Source: a virus. From it: a stretch of 46,490 nucleotides of DNA. A model generated the notes under the pieces. That model was not told the origin of the DNA. It ran no database searches and saw nothing but the letters and a program-made list of their open reading frames with translations. Position 1 is the first letter of the stretch; each line of letters opens with the position of its first letter. A program made the translations under genes and the position numbers. The DNA lies in IMG/VR virus record IMGVR_UViG_3300025687_000077, positions 1 through 46,490 of that record. One strand, 5' to 3'. This document shows positions 4,284-41,958 of the stretch, in pieces.

Positions 4284-5251
4284 TGGCCATGGATGATGCC
4301 GCCGTAGCAGCAATGAACACCGACACCCCCACGCAGGAGGAGTTGGATAACTTCGACGATTCCACTTTGGATAACACCGAGGATACGACCGCACAAGCGA
4401 GTTCGGATGAAGCGGTTGACTCGGCGCCTGCCGCCGAGAATACCGCGGAGGACGAACCCCAAACCCCGGCTGACCCCGAACCTGAAGCGGCACCCCAGGA
4501 TAAGCCGGTGCCGGGGTTTATTCCACGCTCTCGCTATAACTATGCCGCCGCAAAGCGCCGGGAAGAGCGAGAGGCACGCCTGCAGGCCGAGTCTGAGGTA
4601 GAGCGCCTTCGCGCGGAGCTGGCGTCGTCAAAGACGCAGGCGCCGGATTACGATAGAGCAATCGGCGATCTGGACTCGCAGATCAGCGACCTTGATACAA
4701 AGATCGACGAGGCGCGTGCCGACGGTGACAACACCCTAGCCAAGCAGCTGCGTGCGCAGCAGCGACAGCTGGAGCGGCATATTGTCGCGTTGGAGATGCA
4801 GGCTAACGCTCCGCAGCAGGAAGACCCCAATATAGCGACGCAGCACGCGGTTGAACAGATCCGTATCGAGTCGCTGGTGCCGCAGCTTGAGAGCCTGTTC
4901 CCCTCTCTGCAGGAGGGTAACGAGGCCTTCAACGAACCCCTGAGCGATGAGGTGATGGATACGTTCGACCACTTCGCTAAAACACTCCCCCGCGATGAGG
5001 CTCTGCGCCGTGCAGTGTTCTATGTCACAGCCGCTCACGGTATCCAGCCTTTATCGGCGCAAACCTCTGGTCCGCGCAAGACCGACACGAGCAAGAACAT
5101 CAAGGCCGCGGCAGCGCAGCCTCCGAGGCTCAACGAGGCCGGCCTCGACTCGGATAAGGGAGGGGCCTCGCAACGCCTCGATGTTATGAAGATGTCACAG
5201 GACGACTTTGAGCGTCTCGGCGAGCGCGATATCGACGCGATGCTTGTTTAA
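4283..5251 (+). CDS. Putative capsid scaffolding protein
   Basis: About 322 aa, very acidic in the N-terminal third (many Asp, Glu, Pro, Ala; residues 1-75). A basic stretch follows (SRYNYAAAKRREEREARLQ), then a coiled-coil region to about residue 185, then a compact C-terminal helical region. This charge layout, together with the position between portal and major capsid genes, is typical of podovirus scaffolding proteins. A GTG at 4280 could also serve as start; ATG 4283 is preferred because it makes a TGATG overlap with the portal stop. No protease motif was seen. The role is inferred from composition and synteny. Confidence 0.75.
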   Translation: MAMDDAAVAAMNTDTPTQEELDNFDDSTLDNTEDTTAQASSDEAVDSAPAAENTAEDEPQTPADPEPEAAPQDKPVPGFIPRSRYNYAAAKRREEREARLQAESEVERLRAELASSKTQAPDYDRAIGDLDSQISDLDTKIDEARADGDNTLAKQLRAQQRQLERHIVALEMQANAPQQEDPNIATQHAVEQIRIESLVPQLESLFPSLQEGNEAFNEPLSDEVMDTFDHFAKTLPRDEALRRAVFYVTAAHGIQPLSAQTSGPRKTDTSKNIKAAAAQPPRLNEAGLDSDKGGASQRLDVMKMSQDDFERLGERDIDAMLV

Positions 5252-5277
5252 TAACGAAAAGTTCTGTTTTGTGGTGT

Positions 5278-5283
5278 TATAAT
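5278..5283 (+). promoter_or_regulatory. Extended -10 promoter before the capsid leader
   Basis: A perfect TATAAT hexamer preceded by TGT (TGn extended -10) lies 27 bases after the scaffold gene stop. No convincing -35 is present at 17 bp. Transcription would start near 5290 and run directly into the hairpin array. Two other intergenic TATAAT boxes in the late region (11852 and 15835) have a similar setting. Confidence 0.6.
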
Positions 5284-5289
5284 ACGCCT

Positions 5290-5428
5290 GCAAGTAGAAC
5301 TTATTACTACTTACACATGGACGTGAAGCACCGCATGGAAGCGGGGGCTACATGGAAGTGGCTGGTCACATGGAGGTGACCGTTCTCGTGAGGTGAGGGT
5401 TACAACCCCTCCCTCACGACCTTATTTC
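5290..5428 (+). ncRNA. Tandem GGA-hairpin RNA: CsrA/RsmA sponge-like sRNA or capsid mRNA leader
   Basis: Four consecutive hairpins share the hexaloop AUGGA(A/C/G) closed by C-G. They lie at 5314-5325 (CAC/GUG), 5331-5344 (CCGC/GCGG), 5347-5362 (GCUAC/GUGGC, one G-U pair) and 5364-5381 (GGUCAC/GUGACC). The stems differ in sequence but remain paired, while the loop is constant. The first, third and fourth match the CsrA/RsmA consensus ACANGGANGU in full. A promoter lies just upstream and a 12-bp GC hairpin with a weak T-rich tail (TTATTT) just downstream at 5387-5418. The order promoter, GGA hairpins, terminator-like hairpin is the architecture of RsmX/Y/Z and CsrB/C RNAs. It could instead be a structured 5' leader continuing into the capsid gene. 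RNA ends are inferred. Confidence 0.65.
5387..5418 (+). terminator. GC-rich hairpin ending the GGA array, terminator-like
   Basis: CGTGAGG and GAGGG pair with CCCTC and CCTCACG to give 12 base pairs with a single bulged T and a 7-base loop. The bases after it are ACCTTATTTCG, a weak U-tract. It may terminate a short sRNA made of the four hairpins, partially attenuate the capsid transcript, or simply stabilise the leader. Confidence 0.45.
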
Positions 5429-5452
5429 GAATACTCCGCGCGATACAGGAGA

Positions 5453-5534
5453 GGCGGACGGCACCGCCACAACAACGGCACTTCGCCTAAGCTACGGCGC
5501 ACAAGTAGCCATTTTGAGTCCGCACGAAGCGGAC
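5453..5534 (+). promoter_or_regulatory. Structured remainder of the capsid leader
   Basis: Between the GC hairpin and the capsid gene there is no ORF with a plausible start. Two further perfect hairpins can be drawn: GGCGG/CCGCC at 5453-5468 and GTCCGC/GCGGAC with loop ACGAA at 5518-5534. Neither has a GGA loop, so they are separate from the CsrA-like array. Confidence 0.4.
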
Positions 5535-5548
5535 ACTGTGTTTACTCG

Positions 5549-5564
5549 GCTTCATGGAGGAAGC
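5549..5564 (+). promoter_or_regulatory. CsrA-type hairpin holding the capsid ribosome binding site
   Basis: GCUUC-AUGGAG-GAAGC is a perfect 5-bp stem with an AUGGAG hexaloop. The SD sequence GGAGG (5556-5560) lies in the loop and first stem base, and the ATG follows 3 bases after the stem. The loop is the same as in the upstream array. Binding of CsrA to a GGA in an SD loop is the classical way CsrA blocks ribosome access. Confidence 0.7.
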
Positions 5565-5567
5565 AAA

Positions 5568-6674
5568 ATGGCACTCACTAATTTTGCCCGTCTTACCGAC
5601 CACGAAAAGAAAGCGTGGTCCATGTCGTTCCAGAAGAACGCCCGCAACAAGTCTTTCTTGACCCGCCTTCTGGGCTCTGGTCAGGACTCCACTGTTCAGC
5701 GTATCACCGAGCTGAAAAAGTCCAGCAAGGGTACGCAGGCCGTCATCACCCTGGTTCCCGATACCGTCGGCGACGGCGTAGCTGGGGATCGTACGCTGAA
5801 GGGTAACGAGGAGGCTCTCAGCTCGTCTGAGCAGGTCATCCGCGTTGATCAGCTGCGCCACGCGCACGCCAACGAGGGTCGCATCGCTGACCAGAAGACT
5901 ATCGTCAACTTCCGTAAGGAAGCTCGCGACAAGCTGGCCTACTGGATGGCTGACCGTATCGACCAGATGGCCTTCCTTGCCATGTCTGGTGTTGACTTCA
6001 CCAAGAAGAACAACGGCGCCGATCGCGTCGGTTCTGAGCTGCAGTACTTGGAGTTCAACAGCGATATCGCCGCTCCGACTTCCAATCGGCATTTCAACTG
6101 GAACGGGGACGCCAACGGCCTGGTTGCCGGCAGCACCACCGCCGACACCATCGCGGTGCCTACCTACGAGATGCTCCTGCACATGAAGGCCAAGGCGCAG
6201 GACGAGTACATCAAGCCGGTTCGCGGCGAGATGGGCACCGAGCTGTACCACGTCTTTATGACCCCGCAGGGTGTCAAGCAGCTGAAGCTGGACGACAAGT
6301 TCCACAACGCTGTGCGTGACGCCATGCCCCGCACCCCCAACAGCCCGCTGTTCAAGGGGTTCGATACCATCTATATCGACGGCATGGCTATCCACACCCA
6401 CCGCTATGTGTACAACACCTCTGGTGCTGACGCTGGTAGTAAGTGGGGCAGCGCGGGTAACACCGACGGTCAGGCGGTTATCTTCGCCGGCGCACAGGCT
6501 CTGGCCTACGCCGACCTGGGTACCCCCTACTGGGATGAGGAATACGACGACTACCGTAACCGTATGGGTATTGCGGTCGGTAAAATCTTCGGTTTCCTCA
6601 AGCCGCAGTTCCCCTCCGTTGTGCACGGCACCACCGAGGACTTCGGTCTGTTGCGGGTCAACACCGCGATCTAA
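5568..6674 (+). CDS. Major capsid protein, N4-gp56 family
   Basis: A 368-aa protein starting MALTNFARLTDHEKKAWSM. The ATG at 5568 is chosen because GGAGG lies 7 bases upstream and an earlier in-frame start at 5514 has none. The sequence shows the N4-gp56/DUF4043-type pattern: an N-terminal arm, then DQLRHAH...R...A...L..W..DR.D...F, then the capsid core with YHVFMTPQGVKQL and a C-terminal FG..KPQFP. It builds the icosahedral shell. It is placed after portal and scaffold, behind its own promoter and leader and ahead of a 138-aa decoration candidate, so it can be expressed strongly and regulated separately. The SD is enclosed in a GGA hairpin that suggests CsrA-type translational control. Confidence 0.9.
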   Translation: MALTNFARLTDHEKKAWSMSFQKNARNKSFLTRLLGSGQDSTVQRITELKKSSKGTQAVITLVPDTVGDGVAGDRTLKGNEEALSSSEQVIRVDQLRHAHANEGRIADQKTIVNFRKEARDKLAYWMADRIDQMAFLAMSGVDFTKKNNGADRVGSELQYLEFNSDIAAPTSNRHFNWNGDANGLVAGSTTADTIAVPTYEMLLHMKAKAQDEYIKPVRGEMGTELYHVFMTPQGVKQLKLDDKFHNAVRDAMPRTPNSPLFKGFDTIYIDGMAIHTHRYVYNTSGADAGSKWGSAGNTDGQAVIFAGAQALAYADLGTPYWDEEYDDYRNRMGIAVGKIFGFLKPQFPSVVHGTTEDFGLLRVNTAI

Positions 6675-24469: not shown

Positions 24470-24485
24470 GCGACATGGAGGTCGC
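24470..24485 (+). promoter_or_regulatory. CsrA-type hairpin holding the endolysin ribosome binding site
   Basis: GCGAC-AUGGAG-GUCGC is a perfect 5-bp stem with the same AUGGAG hexaloop seen before the capsid gene. ACAUGGAGGU matches ACANGGANGU in full. The SD GGAG is in the loop and the ATG of the endolysin follows one base after the stem. Confidence 0.7.
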
Positions 24486-24486
24486 A

Positions 24487-24852
24487 ATGAGGTACTTCGA
24501 CATTTCCGAGTTCGACTCCCCCGACGCACCGGGGTCGGGGGTCAACATGAACACGCAGTTCCTCCGTATCCTCGACGCCGCGCGCGAAAGTGCCGGCCTC
24601 CCCTTCGCGATAACCAGCGGCTACCGCACCCCAGAGCACAACGAGCGTGTCGGCGGTGTGCGTAACAGCGCACATACGCGTGGGTACGCTGCCGACATTG
24701 TTGCTCGCACTCCGGCCATCGCCATGCGGATTATCACGGCGCTGTACGAGCAGGGGGTGCAGCGTTTCGGGTACTACCATAAACAGGGCTTCGTGCATGC
24801 GGACGTAGATCCCGACAAAGCCGCTCCTGCCTTCTGGGACGATGGAGACTAG
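24487..24852 (+). CDS. Endolysin, peptidase M15 family (D-Ala-D-Ala carboxypeptidase-like)
   Basis: A 121-aa protein. ATG 24487 is used; the ATG at 24475 lies in the ribosome-binding hairpin. The M15A signature is complete: SGYRTPEHNERVGG (44-57), SAHTRGYAAD with zinc ligands His63 and Asp70, and FVHADVD with His104. Enzymes of this family cleave peptidoglycan cross-links or stems from inside the cell at lysis. There is no signal peptide, so access to the wall would need a holin, which was not recognised nearby. The SD is enclosed in a GGA hairpin, which suggests translation is repressed by a CsrA-family protein until late infection. DUF1353 and lipoprotein genes follow. Confidence 0.85.
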   Translation: MRYFDISEFDSPDAPGSGVNMNTQFLRILDAARESAGLPFAITSGYRTPEHNERVGGVRNSAHTRGYAADIVARTPAIAMRIITALYEQGVQRFGYYHKQGFVHADVDPDKAAPAFWDDGD

Positions 24853-25998: not shown

Positions 25999-26197
25999 GT
26001 GTCTAAGCCTCTTGCCTAAGTATATGTATTTGTGTAAGCTTGTGCTTCGGTTTTATTAGACAGTTTGCGACCTAAGTAGCTGTTTTTAGGGCTTTCTGCA
26101 CAGGATTGTGGCTCCTGTGGTCGTGGGTTCGATTCCCATCAGCCACCCCACTTTCAGAGCATCTCCCGTCTAATAAGATAGAGAGTGCCTAATAAAA
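25999..26197. repeat. Integrase arm-type repeats flanking the att core
   Basis: Three copies of a 12-mer close to TTTTATTAGRCA lie around the tRNA-like core: 26051-26062 (plus), 26167-26178 (minus, TCTTATTAGACG) and 26186-26197 (minus, TTTTATTAGGCA). Shorter related words (GTCTAAG, GCCTAAG, ACCTAAG) are at about 26001, 26013 and 26070. Positions on both sides of the core and in opposite orientation fit arm-binding sites of a tyrosine integrase. Confidence 0.5.
26101..26150 (+). other. attP: Putative attP core: 3' part of a bacterial tRNA-His gene
   Basis: Fifty bases reproduce a bacterial tRNA-His from the anticodon stem (loop TTGTGGC, anticodon GTG) through the T arm (GTGGG TTCGATT CCCAT), acceptor strand CAGCCAC, discriminator C and encoded CCA. 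Upstream bases do not form a proper D arm, and the 5' acceptor is only a partial match. It is thus the 3' end of a host tRNA gene rather than a complete tRNA. This is the usual attachment core of tyrosine-integrase phages, and the integrase gene is about 400 bases away. Confidence 0.75.
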
Positions 26198-27762: not shown

Positions 27763-28014
27763 TTATGGTGGTTTTTTGTCAAGCGTTATGCCGTACTGTT
27801 CGCCTCGGGCAATGTTCCACTTGCGTTTTTCTTTCTGCTCGTTTCGATCAGGGGCGGAAATTCCGATACGAAGTTGCCCACGGCTAACCTCTAGCACTGA
27901 CACATAAAAGCATTCTCCAGGTTGAACAATCAACGGTTCGTTGTTTTTAGGCTCAATAACGATGACCTCTCCCGGGCGTCGTGATAAAACAAGACCAGGA
28001 CGTATTTTCTTCAT
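27763..28014 (-). CDS. csrA: CsrA/RsmA-like RNA-binding regulator
   Basis: An 83-aa protein aligning with CsrA by eye. LVLSRRPGEVIVI matches the first strand (E. coli LILTRRVGETLMI) and VSVLEVSRGQLRIGISAPD matches VTVLGVKGNQVRIGVNAPK. Two departures stand out. About 12-14 extra residues (near 21-34) sit in the first strand connection. After SAPD the usual VHREEIY, which holds the RNA-binding Arg44 of E. coli CsrA, is replaced by RNEQKEKRKW. CsrA dimers bind GGA in hairpin loops and block translation; matching hairpins precede the capsid and endolysin genes of this phage. It is followed by DUF4224 and int, linking it to the lysogeny module. RNA specificity is not known. Confidence 0.8.
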   Translation of the reverse strand: MKKIRPGLVLSRRPGEVIVIEPKNNEPLIVQPGECFYVSVLEVSRGQLRIGISAPDRNEQKEKRKWNIARGEQYGITLDKKPP

Positions 28015-34201: not shown

Positions 34202-35134
34202 CTACAGTGCTAAGGCTTCTGCGGCCAGCAGTTTGTGCTCGTCGATGAAGGCCTGTGCTTCACCAAAGCTGGCGAACACCCTCGCTTCGTCGACATTGTC
34301 GGTCCATGTGTGAGCGTCAGTTATCCATAACTCGGCATAGCGGTGTTCGACGACATGAGCGACGTCGTCCTCTCCGTCGTAGGCCACTGCGGTGTTCCAA
34401 TGATCGGTCTCGGACTGTACGAGGTCGAGGGGGAGCTCTTCGATGACGGTGTACTGCTCCACCCGCATCTTGGAGTTGTGGTAGTCCGTCGGTACGGCCA
34501 CGACGTGTGCGGGATTGACCTTCACCGCGACGACTCGCTCGCCCCAGAAGTGCTTTAGGTATTCCAAAGAACACACATGGAAGCCTGCAGAACAGGTGCG
34601 AGTGGGGTCGTCATCCACATCGGTGCGGGGCATCTGCAACGTGCTACCAACCGCGTTATCAAATTTACCCGTGGCGCAGTCGGTCCAATCGTCTCGTATC
34701 CGCTTGTAGGCCATAAAGCAGCCGTCGGGGGTAATTGGCAGCTTGTTAGCCTCGAGAAACCCGTACAGCTGCTCACGAGAGCGGTAGCTCGGGTTGCCCT
34801 GCAGGTTCTCGAGAAAGGCTACCATGGGCTGCACGTTAAAGCCTTGCGAGCGCATGCCCAGAATACGGTCCACCAGGGCGCCGTGCAGTGTGTCGCCGTT
34901 ATAGAAGATCGCGCCGTCGCGAACCTCAACACCCTGCTCGGCTGCTGGGGCCAGGTAGGTCTTGACAACTTGCTCCTGGTCGACCAGCTCGGCGGCGCGT
35001 GCCCAATCTTCCTGGCGTACCGCCTCACGAAGATCGTCCCACGATGCGATATCGCTGGTACAGGTGACGAGCTTGCCCGTGTAGTACATGGAAAAACTGT
35101 CGTCGGTCAAAATATAGAAGGGGGTGTCGCTCAT
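34202..35134 (-). CDS. rIIB: rIIB-like protein
   Basis: A 310-aa protein resembling phage T4 rIIB and its relatives. The segment LVDRILGMRSQGFNVQPMVAFLENL...LPITPDGCFMAYKRI...DWTD and the following CSAGFHVCSLEYLKHF...VVAVKVNPAHVVAVPTDY are typical of this family. It overlaps rIIA by the ATGA junction, the same gene pair order as in T4. In T4, rIIA and rIIB protect against exclusion by a resident lambda prophage and associate with the membrane. Here the pair is in a temperate phage. Confidence 0.8.
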   Translation of the reverse strand: MSDTPFYILTDDSFSMYYTGKLVTCTSDIASWDDLREAVRQEDWARAAELVDQEQVVKTYLAPAAEQGVEVRDGAIFYNGDTLHGALVDRILGMRSQGFNVQPMVAFLENLQGNPSYRSREQLYGFLEANKLPITPDGCFMAYKRIRDDWTDCATGKFDNAVGSTLQMPRTDVDDDPTRTCSAGFHVCSLEYLKHFWGERVVAVKVNPAHVVAVPTDYHNSKMRVEQYTVIEELPLDLVQSETDHWNTAVAYDGEDDVAHVVEHRYAELWITDAHTWTDNVDEARVFASFGEAQAFIDEHKLLAAEALAL

Positions 35135-40205: not shown

Positions 40206-41958
40206 CGGCGTCATCCTCGTCGGCTAGGTACACGACCTCGTCGTGAACCAGTAAGACAACGTCTGGATAACGTTTGGCCAGCTCTAACGCTTGCATGGCC
40301 ACGACGGTACGTGCGGTAGATTGAATCAAATTTTCACAAAATTTCCCGCCGTAGATGTTGGTGACACCGTTGCGGGCTTTGTAACTGAAGTGTCTGCGCC
40401 CTTCGTCGTCTTGTTCGCTGTACAAGCCGTCAAAACGCATAAACAACTTGTTGGGGAGTAGTACATTTGATCCGTAAAATTCCCAAGGACCAAATTCAAA
40501 ATGCTCCCCGTCTTCCATACGTGAAAGGGCACCTTCAAGATCATCCCAAAGGGCAGGGATGCCTTTGCGTTTGGTGCGATAGGTATTGACGGCCTTAATG
40601 GCTAAGGCGTCGGTAATGTCAATGGGAGGGCCCATCATGCCGGCGCGAACGGTGTAGGCAAACTTACGCCAACCCGCACCGTAACCCAGCATCAGCTCGG
40701 CTACTTTACCCAGTTGGCGCTCAGTTTTATGCTCGCGTTTGTTTACGGGGTAGCCGTAGATTTCTGAGGCCGTCTCAGCGTAGGGATCACCCCCTTCGCG
40801 GAAGGTACGCAACAACGACTCTTCACCAGCAGCCCAAGCGTTCGTACGAGCTTCAATCTGCGAGCTATCAACTACGACGATAACCTTGCCAGGAGGCGCG
40901 ATAATAGCTCGTCGTAGACGATCGCTCTGCCCGTTGCGACCGGATGGTAGATTCTGCATATTGATTTTGTCCCAAGCCGACCAGCGGTGCGTGTGGGCAC
41001 CACAGTATTGGAGAGGGACTGGGAGAGTAGGTCTCCCGTGCGACAAAAAGCGATGCGCTCGTGTTTCATTGATCGTAGATTTCACGCGCTTGCGGGCCAA
41101 AATTAGATCGGCTACACGGGGGTCTTGCTCCAACTTCTGAAAGTCCAAGTCAGCCTTGGAGAAAGCGTATGTTCGTGCGCCTGTTGTCGGGCTGGTCTTA
41201 GTGGGAGGTGTTACGCCACGCGCCTCCAGCAGCTGTGCGAACTGCGGATTGGATAACAGCTGTGCGGCGGTAGCACCCGCGTGTGCGGCCAGCTTTGACT
41301 TAATCGCAGCCTCTTCAGAGGCCTCTTCGAGGCATAAGGCAGCGTCGATATGCAGCTTGGGGTCACAAAACGCACGTAGCGTCATATCGATAATGTGAAG
41401 CTCCTCGCGGGGATACTTCAGATCAATCAACGCACGGAAGATGTCGTCCATCAACTCGACGTCGCGGTTTGCGTACGGTATGAGCGCCTTCTCTAAGGCC
41501 CACGGGAGATTATAGATCCAGGCCGTCTTCTCCAGAGCGCCCTCAATCTTACGGCCCAGCTTCAACCGCTCACCAATCTGGCTCAAATTGTGCGGCTTGC
41601 CTACACCCCACTCGCCGCGGCTCATCGACAGCGTATCGAGGTAGTACCCAGGCACGCGGTTGTACTTCTGGCTCAGGATGAAACCGTCAAACGCGGTGTT
41701 CTGGCACAGCAGCGCTGTGTTGGGCCAGTCGATCTCGCTCAGCACGTCGTTGAGGTCGCAGCCGCTGACCCAAAAGATGTTGTCATCCCCCGGCATACGA
41801 ACCGACGCACCATGCACTTTGAACTTCGGGCTTCGCACGTACTCCGTCGTGCTCATCTTGCTGAGCGTGATCTTTGCGCCACGCCCCATCTCGTAGTACG
41901 TCTCCGCATCAAAGGAAAAAACGGGTAGCGTACGTCCGTGCAGATCGACGATCTCCAT
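40099..41958 (-). CDS. Family A DNA polymerase with 3'-5' exonuclease
   Basis: A 619-aa phage replicative polymerase. Exonuclease motif FSFDAETYY has the metal-binding Asp17 and Glu19. Polymerase motif A is VVDSSQIEART (about 358-368), motif B RQLGKVAELMLGYG (about 408-421) and motif C LLVHDEV (569-575). At the place of E. coli Phe762 (four residues after the motif B Lys) the residue is Leu, a variant linked in virus surveys to temperate phages. ATG 41958 is preferred over a TTG at 41973. It likely works with the SF2 helicase and nucleases in the same cluster. A primase was not recognised in the window. Confidence 0.9.
   Translation of the reverse strand: MEIVDLHGRTLPVFSFDAETYYEMGRGAKITLSKMSTTEYVRSPKFKVHGASVRMPGDDNIFWVSGCDLNDVLSEIDWPNTALLCQNTAFDGFILSQKYNRVPGYYLDTLSMSRGEWGVGKPHNLSQIGERLKLGRKIEGALEKTAWIYNLPWALEKALIPYANRDVELMDDIFRALIDLKYPREELHIIDMTLRAFCDPKLHIDAALCLEEASEEAAIKSKLAAHAGATAAQLLSNPQFAQLLEARGVTPPTKTSPTTGARTYAFSKADLDFQKLEQDPRVADLILARKRVKSTINETRAHRFLSHGRPTLPVPLQYCGAHTHRWSAWDKINMQNLPSGRNGQSDRLRRAIIAPPGKVIVVVDSSQIEARTNAWAAGEESLLRTFREGGDPYAETASEIYGYPVNKREHKTERQLGKVAELMLGYGAGWRKFAYTVRAGMMGPPIDITDALAIKAVNTYRTKRKGIPALWDDLEGALSRMEDGEHFEFGPWEFYGSNVLLPNKLFMRFDGLYSEQDDEGRRHFSYKARNGVTNIYGGKFCENLIQSTARTVVAMQALELAKRYPDVVLLVHDEVVYLADEDDADDALQFGIDCLREPPSFCPDLPVDAEGGFARNYSK

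Follow-up and report, generated by a model that had tools for sequence, protein, structure and literature searches.

A candidate multi-site CsrA-family target in the capsid mRNA leader of a phage encoding a CsrA homologue

Decoy RNAs of the Csr/Rsm systems, CsrB/C and RsmX/Y/Z, consist of a promoter, tandem GGA hairpins and a following hairpin, CsrB having more sites than the phage array described here. Leaders of mRNAs may also carry several sites, as in the CsrA-repressed hag of Bacillus subtilis. The pgaA leader of Escherichia coli has six CsrA sites, two of them on the Shine-Dalgarno sequence (SD) and the start codon, and in glgC a high-affinity hairpin site cooperates with a weaker SD site; a CsrA dimer bridges sites 10-63 nt apart, the optimum being printed as >18 nt (PMC7652899). 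In phages, csrA genes are numerous, with 30 tabulated (PMC7366521), and a CsrA-like protein is tied to the major capsid gene in Bcep22-like and related phages (PMC9144972, PMC10269572). Virions of phage JC1 yielded one CsrA peptide (PMC9144972). The role of phage csrA is stated to need experiments still (PMC9144972, PMC7366521). In Serratia ATCC 39006, podovirus-like particles were released by an rsmA mutant but not by its parent (PMC4046660), and in the Salmonella PSAP2-2 case a CsrA-family protein restrains the prophage, an effect ascribed to higher cI expression (PMC12371270). Among the matches listed, titles and opening lines of abstracts described neither a phage CsrA-capsid leader nor a phage decoy RNA.

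The window, i.e. the whole stretch of 46,490 nucleotides that was analysed (IMG/VR record IMGVR_UViG_3300025687_000077), is 100 % identical throughout to a section of an environmental phage record of 67,243 bp (loci L004 and L226). It is part of a podovirus-like, probably temperate phage and contains genes for a P22-type portal, a major capsid protein, an integrase and a family A DNA polymerase. The major capsid protein gene is located at 5568..6674 on the plus strand (PF13252, E 3.9e-47, obtained with an extended version of the frame; major head protein phrog_334, E 3.3e-72). Between the preceding gene, ending at 5251, and the capsid AUG at 5568 lies a gap of 316 nt with, in this order, an extended -10 element, a short stem, four hairpins and a GC hairpin. 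The four hairpins (5314-5382, plus strand) have AUGGAN hexaloops: CAC-AUGGAC-GUG at 5314..5325 (hairpin 1, loop at 5317), CCGC-AUGGAA-GCGG at 5331..5344 (hairpin 2, loop at 5335), GGCUAC-AUGGAA-GUGGCU at 5346..5363 (hairpin 3, loop at 5352) and GGUCAC-AUGGAG-GUGACC at 5364..5381 (hairpin 4, loop at 5370). With G-U pairs allowed the stems have 3, 4, 6 and 7 pairs, and the loop starts are 18, 17 and 18 nt apart, within the 10-63 nt bridging range of a CsrA dimer. The initial annotation had reported four AUGGAN hairpins with differing, paired stems and three matches to the CsrA/RsmA consensus; the hairpins were recovered at these positions, and loops 1, 3 and 4 fit ACANGGANGU.

Two further copies, absent from the initial annotation, lie 19 kb apart on the SDs of the capsid gene and of an endolysin gene of the peptidase M15 type (24487..24852, plus strand; PF08291, E 6.2e-18; phrog_894, endolysin, E 1e-27). 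Hairpin 5 (GCUUC-AUGGAG-GAAGC, 5549..5564, plus strand) ends three bases 5' of the capsid AUG and holds the capsid SD in its loop and 3' arm. Hairpin 6 (GCGAC-AUGGAG-GUCGC, 24470..24485, plus strand) contains the endolysin SD and ends one base 5' of the AUG at 24487, the start preferred on account of its SD; another AUG in frame, at 24475, falls in the loop of hairpin 6. In all, six AUGGAN hexaloops closed by C-G present the ANGGA consensus with its GGA in a hairpin loop, and two of them overlap an SD, as is typical of CsrA targets. In the phage record, two of eight ANGGAN hairpins with a Watson-Crick stem of at least 4 pairs directly precede a frame of at least 60 codons, and these frames are the capsid and the endolysin gene. 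The same count gave one of three in G010 and none of one in G020, both csrA-bearing relatives, and one of four in relative G004, where csrA was not found; the loops were AGGGAC and ACGGAU. One such hairpin per genome can therefore be chance, while two, both with AUGGAG loops, are less easily explained in this way. Like the E. coli pgaA and glgC leaders, the phage leader has several GGA sites, one of them on the SD (PMC7652899); unlike those leaders, it precedes a capsid gene, and its predicted sites are all near-identical AUGGAN hexaloop hairpins. As an observation apart, the DNA polymerase gene has its likely start codon in an AUGGAG hexaloop (41965-41946 of the window, minus strand, loop at 41958) on a 7-pair stem that needs G-U pairs. 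It could be a third CsrA-type target or chance.

The number of these hairpins exceeded chance. Five AUGGA hexaloops with stems of at least 3 pairs (G-U allowed) were present in 5252-5567; of 2000 dinucleotide shuffles, 1972 contained no such hexaloop and 28 contained one, and three or more AUGGA hairpins within 60 nt appeared in none of 200 whole-window shuffles. With Watson-Crick stems of at least 4 pairs, 5 of the 63 AUGGA words in the window formed a hairpin, against 0.33 expected from all hexaloops and against a mean of 0.225 and a maximum of 2 in 40 shuffles. These were hairpins 2, 4, 5 and 6 and a site at 34328 (minus strand) inside a rIIB-like gene, the last probably a chance occurrence. 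Ranked by this count, the word ATAAA (6) stood above AUGGA (5), and CTTTA (5) tied with it. Covariation was analysed on the six hairpins as internal copies within one genome, because the only other copy of the phage is 100 % identical and its relative L002 lacks the array. C-AUGGAN-G was invariant and the stems differed by compensatory changes: 93.3 % of the alignment cells were paired versus 67.2 % in shuffles, in four of five stem pairs both sides had changed (a number attained by 8 of 500 shuffles), and the covariation score was 0.72 versus 0.21 in shuffles (reached in 0 of 500) and at most 0.11 in slid controls, all figures being biased upward as the copies share one genome and were picked for pairing. 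By motif, number, spacing, compensatory stems and the presence of a phage csrA gene, the assignment as CsrA-type sites is well supported.

Folding of 5278-5428 gave a z of -3.75, none of 200 shuffles being as stable, with hairpins 2-4 formed and hairpin 1 not. In 5290-5428 the fold with all four hairpins has -52.6 versus -54.1 kcal/mol for the minimum free energy (MFE) fold, i.e. it lies 1.5 kcal/mol above. Hairpins 2 and 4 have pairing probabilities of 0.98-0.99 and 0.99-1.0 there, the latter falling to about 0.32 in 5290-5620. An alternative pairing competes with hairpin 1 (0.04) and hairpin 3 (0.08), which are not part of the optimum. Hairpin 6 has a pairing probability of 1.0. The value for hairpin 5 is 0.06-0.10; relative to the MFE fold, a structure containing it is less stable by 1.0 kcal/mol in 5440-5620 and by 1.5 kcal/mol in 5500-5600. 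The MFE fold places the capsid start codon in a perfect 9-bp stem formed by GCCAUUUUG (5508..5516, plus strand) and the complementary CAAAAUGGC at 5564-5572, with a pairing probability of about 0.91 in 5440-5620 and 0.64 in 5290-5620. In these models the stem would occlude the start in addition to the SD hairpin; more than one structure is therefore predicted to hinder capsid initiation, and binding of CsrA would presumably alter the balance between the leader folds.

A divergent CsrA homologue of 83 aa is encoded at 27763..28014 on the minus strand, between the integrase and ribonucleotide reductase genes and about 22 kb from the capsid gene (PF02599, 33.5 bits at a cut-off of 27; phrog_9500). 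L4 and R6 are RNA-contact residues of E. coli CsrA, and their equivalents in the alignment are L10 and R12 of the phage protein. A further contact residue of the E. coli protein is R44 (PMC7652899), at whose position the phage protein has Glu62, flanked by K61 and K63; it also has a 12-residue insertion relative to E. coli CsrA. A single-sequence structure model was poor (pLDDT 45.6). Relatives of the protein were absent from the phage collection at E 0.01, and a search of viral contigs returned the same phage only. The phage CsrA may bind GGA hairpins or may bind differently, and a host CsrA is equally a candidate for the binder. A tRNA-His sequence (26076-26150) near the integrase gene may be the attachment site; a stretch of 34 nt at its 3' end recurs without mismatch in one contig of the genome collection, in a tRNA-His of a Chromatiales MAG. 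CsrA was present in five of six genomes of the order of this MAG and was not found in the MAG itself.

We consider it probable, though by no means assured, that the major capsid mRNA has 5290-5567 as its 5' leader and that this leader is a multi-site target through which a CsrA-family protein represses capsid translation, with the endolysin gene as a second target. The four tandem AUGGAN hairpins, 17-18 nt apart, would catch CsrA dimers, and CsrA bound at hairpin 5 would block the ribosome on the capsid mRNA, because loop and 3' arm of this hairpin hold the capsid SD. Since the endolysin gene has the same SD hairpin, CsrA would restrain assembly and lysis jointly, e.g., in lysogeny or early infection, until late mRNA outnumbers CsrA and repression ends. 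Here we infer transcription of the leader, binding and repression by a CsrA of phage or host, and the timing. The linear distance from hairpin 4 to the capsid SD hairpin, 184 nt, exceeds the bridging range; the array may thus load CsrA near the SD only via folding, or may mainly titrate it. A CsrA-family protein restrains a prophage in the Serratia ATCC 39006 and Salmonella PSAP2-2 cases, but in the portions of these reports drawn on here neither capsid nor lysis genes are said to carry CsrA sites (PMC4046660, PMC12371270).

The initial annotation had left two CsrA readings side by side, a decoy RNA and a capsid leader. As a decoy, an RNA of about 130 nt ending at the GC hairpin would titrate host or phage CsrA, and the capsid mRNA would arise by read-through. 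The layout resembles CsrB/C and RsmX/Y/Z in that tandem GGA hairpins and then a hairpin follow a promoter. The promoter is, however, an extended -10 (TG-T-TATAAT, 5275..5283, plus strand, with TG at 5275-5276 and TATAAT at 5278-5283) and not a scan result: this element of the initial annotation is present in the sequence, but a sigma-70 scan of 5000-5700 found no promoter-like site, and for this reason the assignment is made from the extended -10, the RNA start being expected near 5290. The GC hairpin with a weak T tail, likewise described before, was confirmed at 5386..5419 (plus strand; 13 pairs, one bulge, -22.0 kcal/mol, tail CCTTATTTC). Its T tail is broken, and the terminator scan, which gave a weaker site at 5518-5534, did not call it; it may be a weak terminator or an element of stability or processing. 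In favour of a decoy are the four consecutive sites between an extended -10 and a -22 kcal/mol hairpin with 5 T among the first 8 bases of its tail, together with the second terminator-like site. The leader, with 316 nt against 181 in KPP25, 197 in phiA008 and 160 in AP1, is also about 120-155 nt longer, as if array and hairpin were an added module. In contrast to the Csr/Rsm decoys, no canonical terminator was found behind the array, which runs on into the capsid gene and has its motif in common with the capsid SD. Rfam gave no sRNA match either: only three tRNAs reached the gathering score in the whole window, and 5200-5650 gave nothing below E 0.38 and nothing relevant at E up to 5. Control in cis is suggested by the recurrence of one hairpin on two SDs, and the multi-site leader is favoured because these copies occupy the SD of the capsid gene and that of an unlinked lysis gene. 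A free decoy, with its weak terminator-like hairpin, is in our judgement unlikely.

Coat proteins of RNA phages control translation via an operator, and the hairpins could in the same manner be an operator for the capsid protein or another RNA-binding phage protein. A translational operator is made likely by the SD hairpins, and the phage CsrA has no equivalent of R44; against this, loop and closing pair correspond to the CsrA consensus, three of the four array loops fitting ACANGGANGU, and CsrA is encoded by the phage itself and in the candidate host order as given above. We regard a binder outside the CsrA family as improbable. Far less credible is an attenuator or ribosome decoy, in which AUG and GGAG of the loops would serve as start or standby sites and a frame of 20 codons at 5317-5379 with three Trp codons would encode a leader peptide. 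The open frame MDVKHRMEAGATWKWLVTWR does precede the GC hairpin, but its ATG has no SD in front of it (upstream GAACTTATTACTACTTACAC), two of its three Trp codons result from AUGGA loops being read in another frame, and the paired stems and the endolysin site would be left unexplained.

A proximity of csrA and capsid genes was observed in other phages. In 8 of 12 phage stretches examined, namely those of PEp14, LASTA, CSP3, JC1, Itty13, Parlo, Skulduggery and ZX1 (L164-L171), a CsrA-like gene was situated directly 5' of the major capsid gene with a gap of 95-191 nt. The present phage shares with these Bcep22-like pairs the link of a phage CsrA-like protein to the major capsid gene, but its csrA is about 22 kb off and the array lies in the leader. 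The word AUGGA was absent from all eight gaps, a consensus fold of seven of these leaders had only a weak common hairpin, and the R6 position was not Arg in six aligned capsid-linked proteins. The pairing suggests a capsid-linked CsrA branch with an RNA target of its own, and CsrA-like proteins may be linked to capsid expression more widely than in this phage, with different RNA signals. In phages PA8 (MZ285879) and Baskent_P6 (PQ415074) both CsrA searches match, at different places; each of them therefore has a canonical CsrA-like gene and a second one belonging to the divergent branch.

The initial annotation had named relatives without the loops as evidence against its proposal, and this was in part what we found. 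The comparison covered 36 loci with related capsids, representing 21 distinct upstream sequences, one of them just 229 nt long. L004, the same phage, was the sole locus with an AUGGA hairpin up to 350 nt 5' of the capsid gene; L002, whose capsid is 68 % identical, had none within this distance. Three loci (L005, L006, L007) had a single 3-pair ANGGAN hairpin each 5' of the capsid gene, and the capsid leaders of KPP25, phiA008 and AP1 had no hairpins of the AUGGAN kind, the capsid SD of AP1 containing an unpaired ACAUGGAG. The csrA-bearing relatives G010 and G020 had no AUGGAN hairpin directly before any gene; an AUGGA hairpin common to both is antisense inside a gene and was so counted as chance. 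Among 61 endolysin loci, in 34 of which the aligned start is not a start codon and sites may be missed, the SD hairpin was again confined to the same phage. At one of these loci (L292) a weak A-U/G-U hairpin encloses the start codon in an AUGGAA loop. Since only the same phage carries the capsid array and the endolysin SD hairpin, the element is young, fast-changing or private to its lineage. The missing conservation weakens a claim to a conserved family but leaves the internal evidence intact. Against the leader reading speak, in sum, the lack of relatives keeping the array, the low pairing probability of the capsid SD hairpin (0.06-0.10), the non-optimal hairpins 1 and 3, and Glu at the R44 position.

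Capsid relatives were absent from the genome collection and present in 5 of 369 gammaproteobacterial genomes; four of these five leaders had no AUGGA array by eye, and the fifth, L332, no match in the search. The capsid leader of L003 has two tandem hairpins 162 and 132 nt 5' of the capsid start, GACUAC-GUCGACACA-GUAGUC and GACUGC-GUCGAUACA-GCAGUC, with differing paired stems and like loops, apparently an array of another motif in the same place. In the leaders of L017-L037 (capsids 45-58 % identical), visual comparison shows a long stretch, GCGCTAGTTCGTCGC ... CACGATACGG, to be conserved; it has no AUGGAN hairpin and possibly represents another leader regulator.

Arrays elsewhere were sought with patterns of three CATGGANG, found in at least 119 stretches of viral contigs, and of two ACATGGANGT, found in 88. 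A looser first screen of 161 sequences also flagged L060 and L101. The final hairpin screen of 360 of 364 loci, leaving out four pieces of the 67-kb record, gave L077, L122, L129, L177, L231, L292 and L341 besides L004/L226. On visual inspection, L077 is a tandem repeat of identical units, L122 and L177 resemble coding repeats, L129 and L292 have scattered sites and L231 is a palindromic repeat; these were rejected as arrays. The repeated near-palindromes TATGACATGGATGTCATA of L231, a 43-kb viral contig (about 3308, minus strand), may be operator DNA or AUGGAU hairpins. The three-site pattern occurred in 9 of 369 gammaproteobacterial genomes. L341 (1495-1560), a genuine look-alike from gammaproteobacterial genome G195, has three tandem AUGGAU hairpins, 24 and 23 nt apart, with differing yet paired stems (CCGCC/GGCGG, CUGC/GCAG, GUCC/GGAC). 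They precede the conserved part of an AbiEi-like antitoxin gene, which a GmrSD-like endonuclease gene adjoins. Genome G195 encodes CsrA, the L341 array has no Rfam match, and its fold surpasses shuffles only slightly, 11 of 200 being equally stable. It is a possible Csr decoy or leader beside defence genes.

The proposed leader of the capsid mRNA could be part of a post-transcriptional clock, a possibility that overlaps with both the leader and the decoy reading and that we advance only tentatively. The phage CsrA, encoded beside the integrase, would silence the capsid and endolysin mRNAs, and each capsid mRNA would supply four extra CsrA sites. Once late transcription passed a threshold, the leader, or a decoy cut or terminated from it, would absorb CsrA and free capsid and lysis translation, such that a self-titrating array would time assembly and lysis. 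With candidate targets, the capsid and lysis genes, within the genome of a csrA-bearing phage, the question of what phage csrA does is reduced to simple binding and reporter tests. If the proposal is true, translation control by CsrA, perhaps with a built-in titration array, would join the ways in which phages time their late genes.
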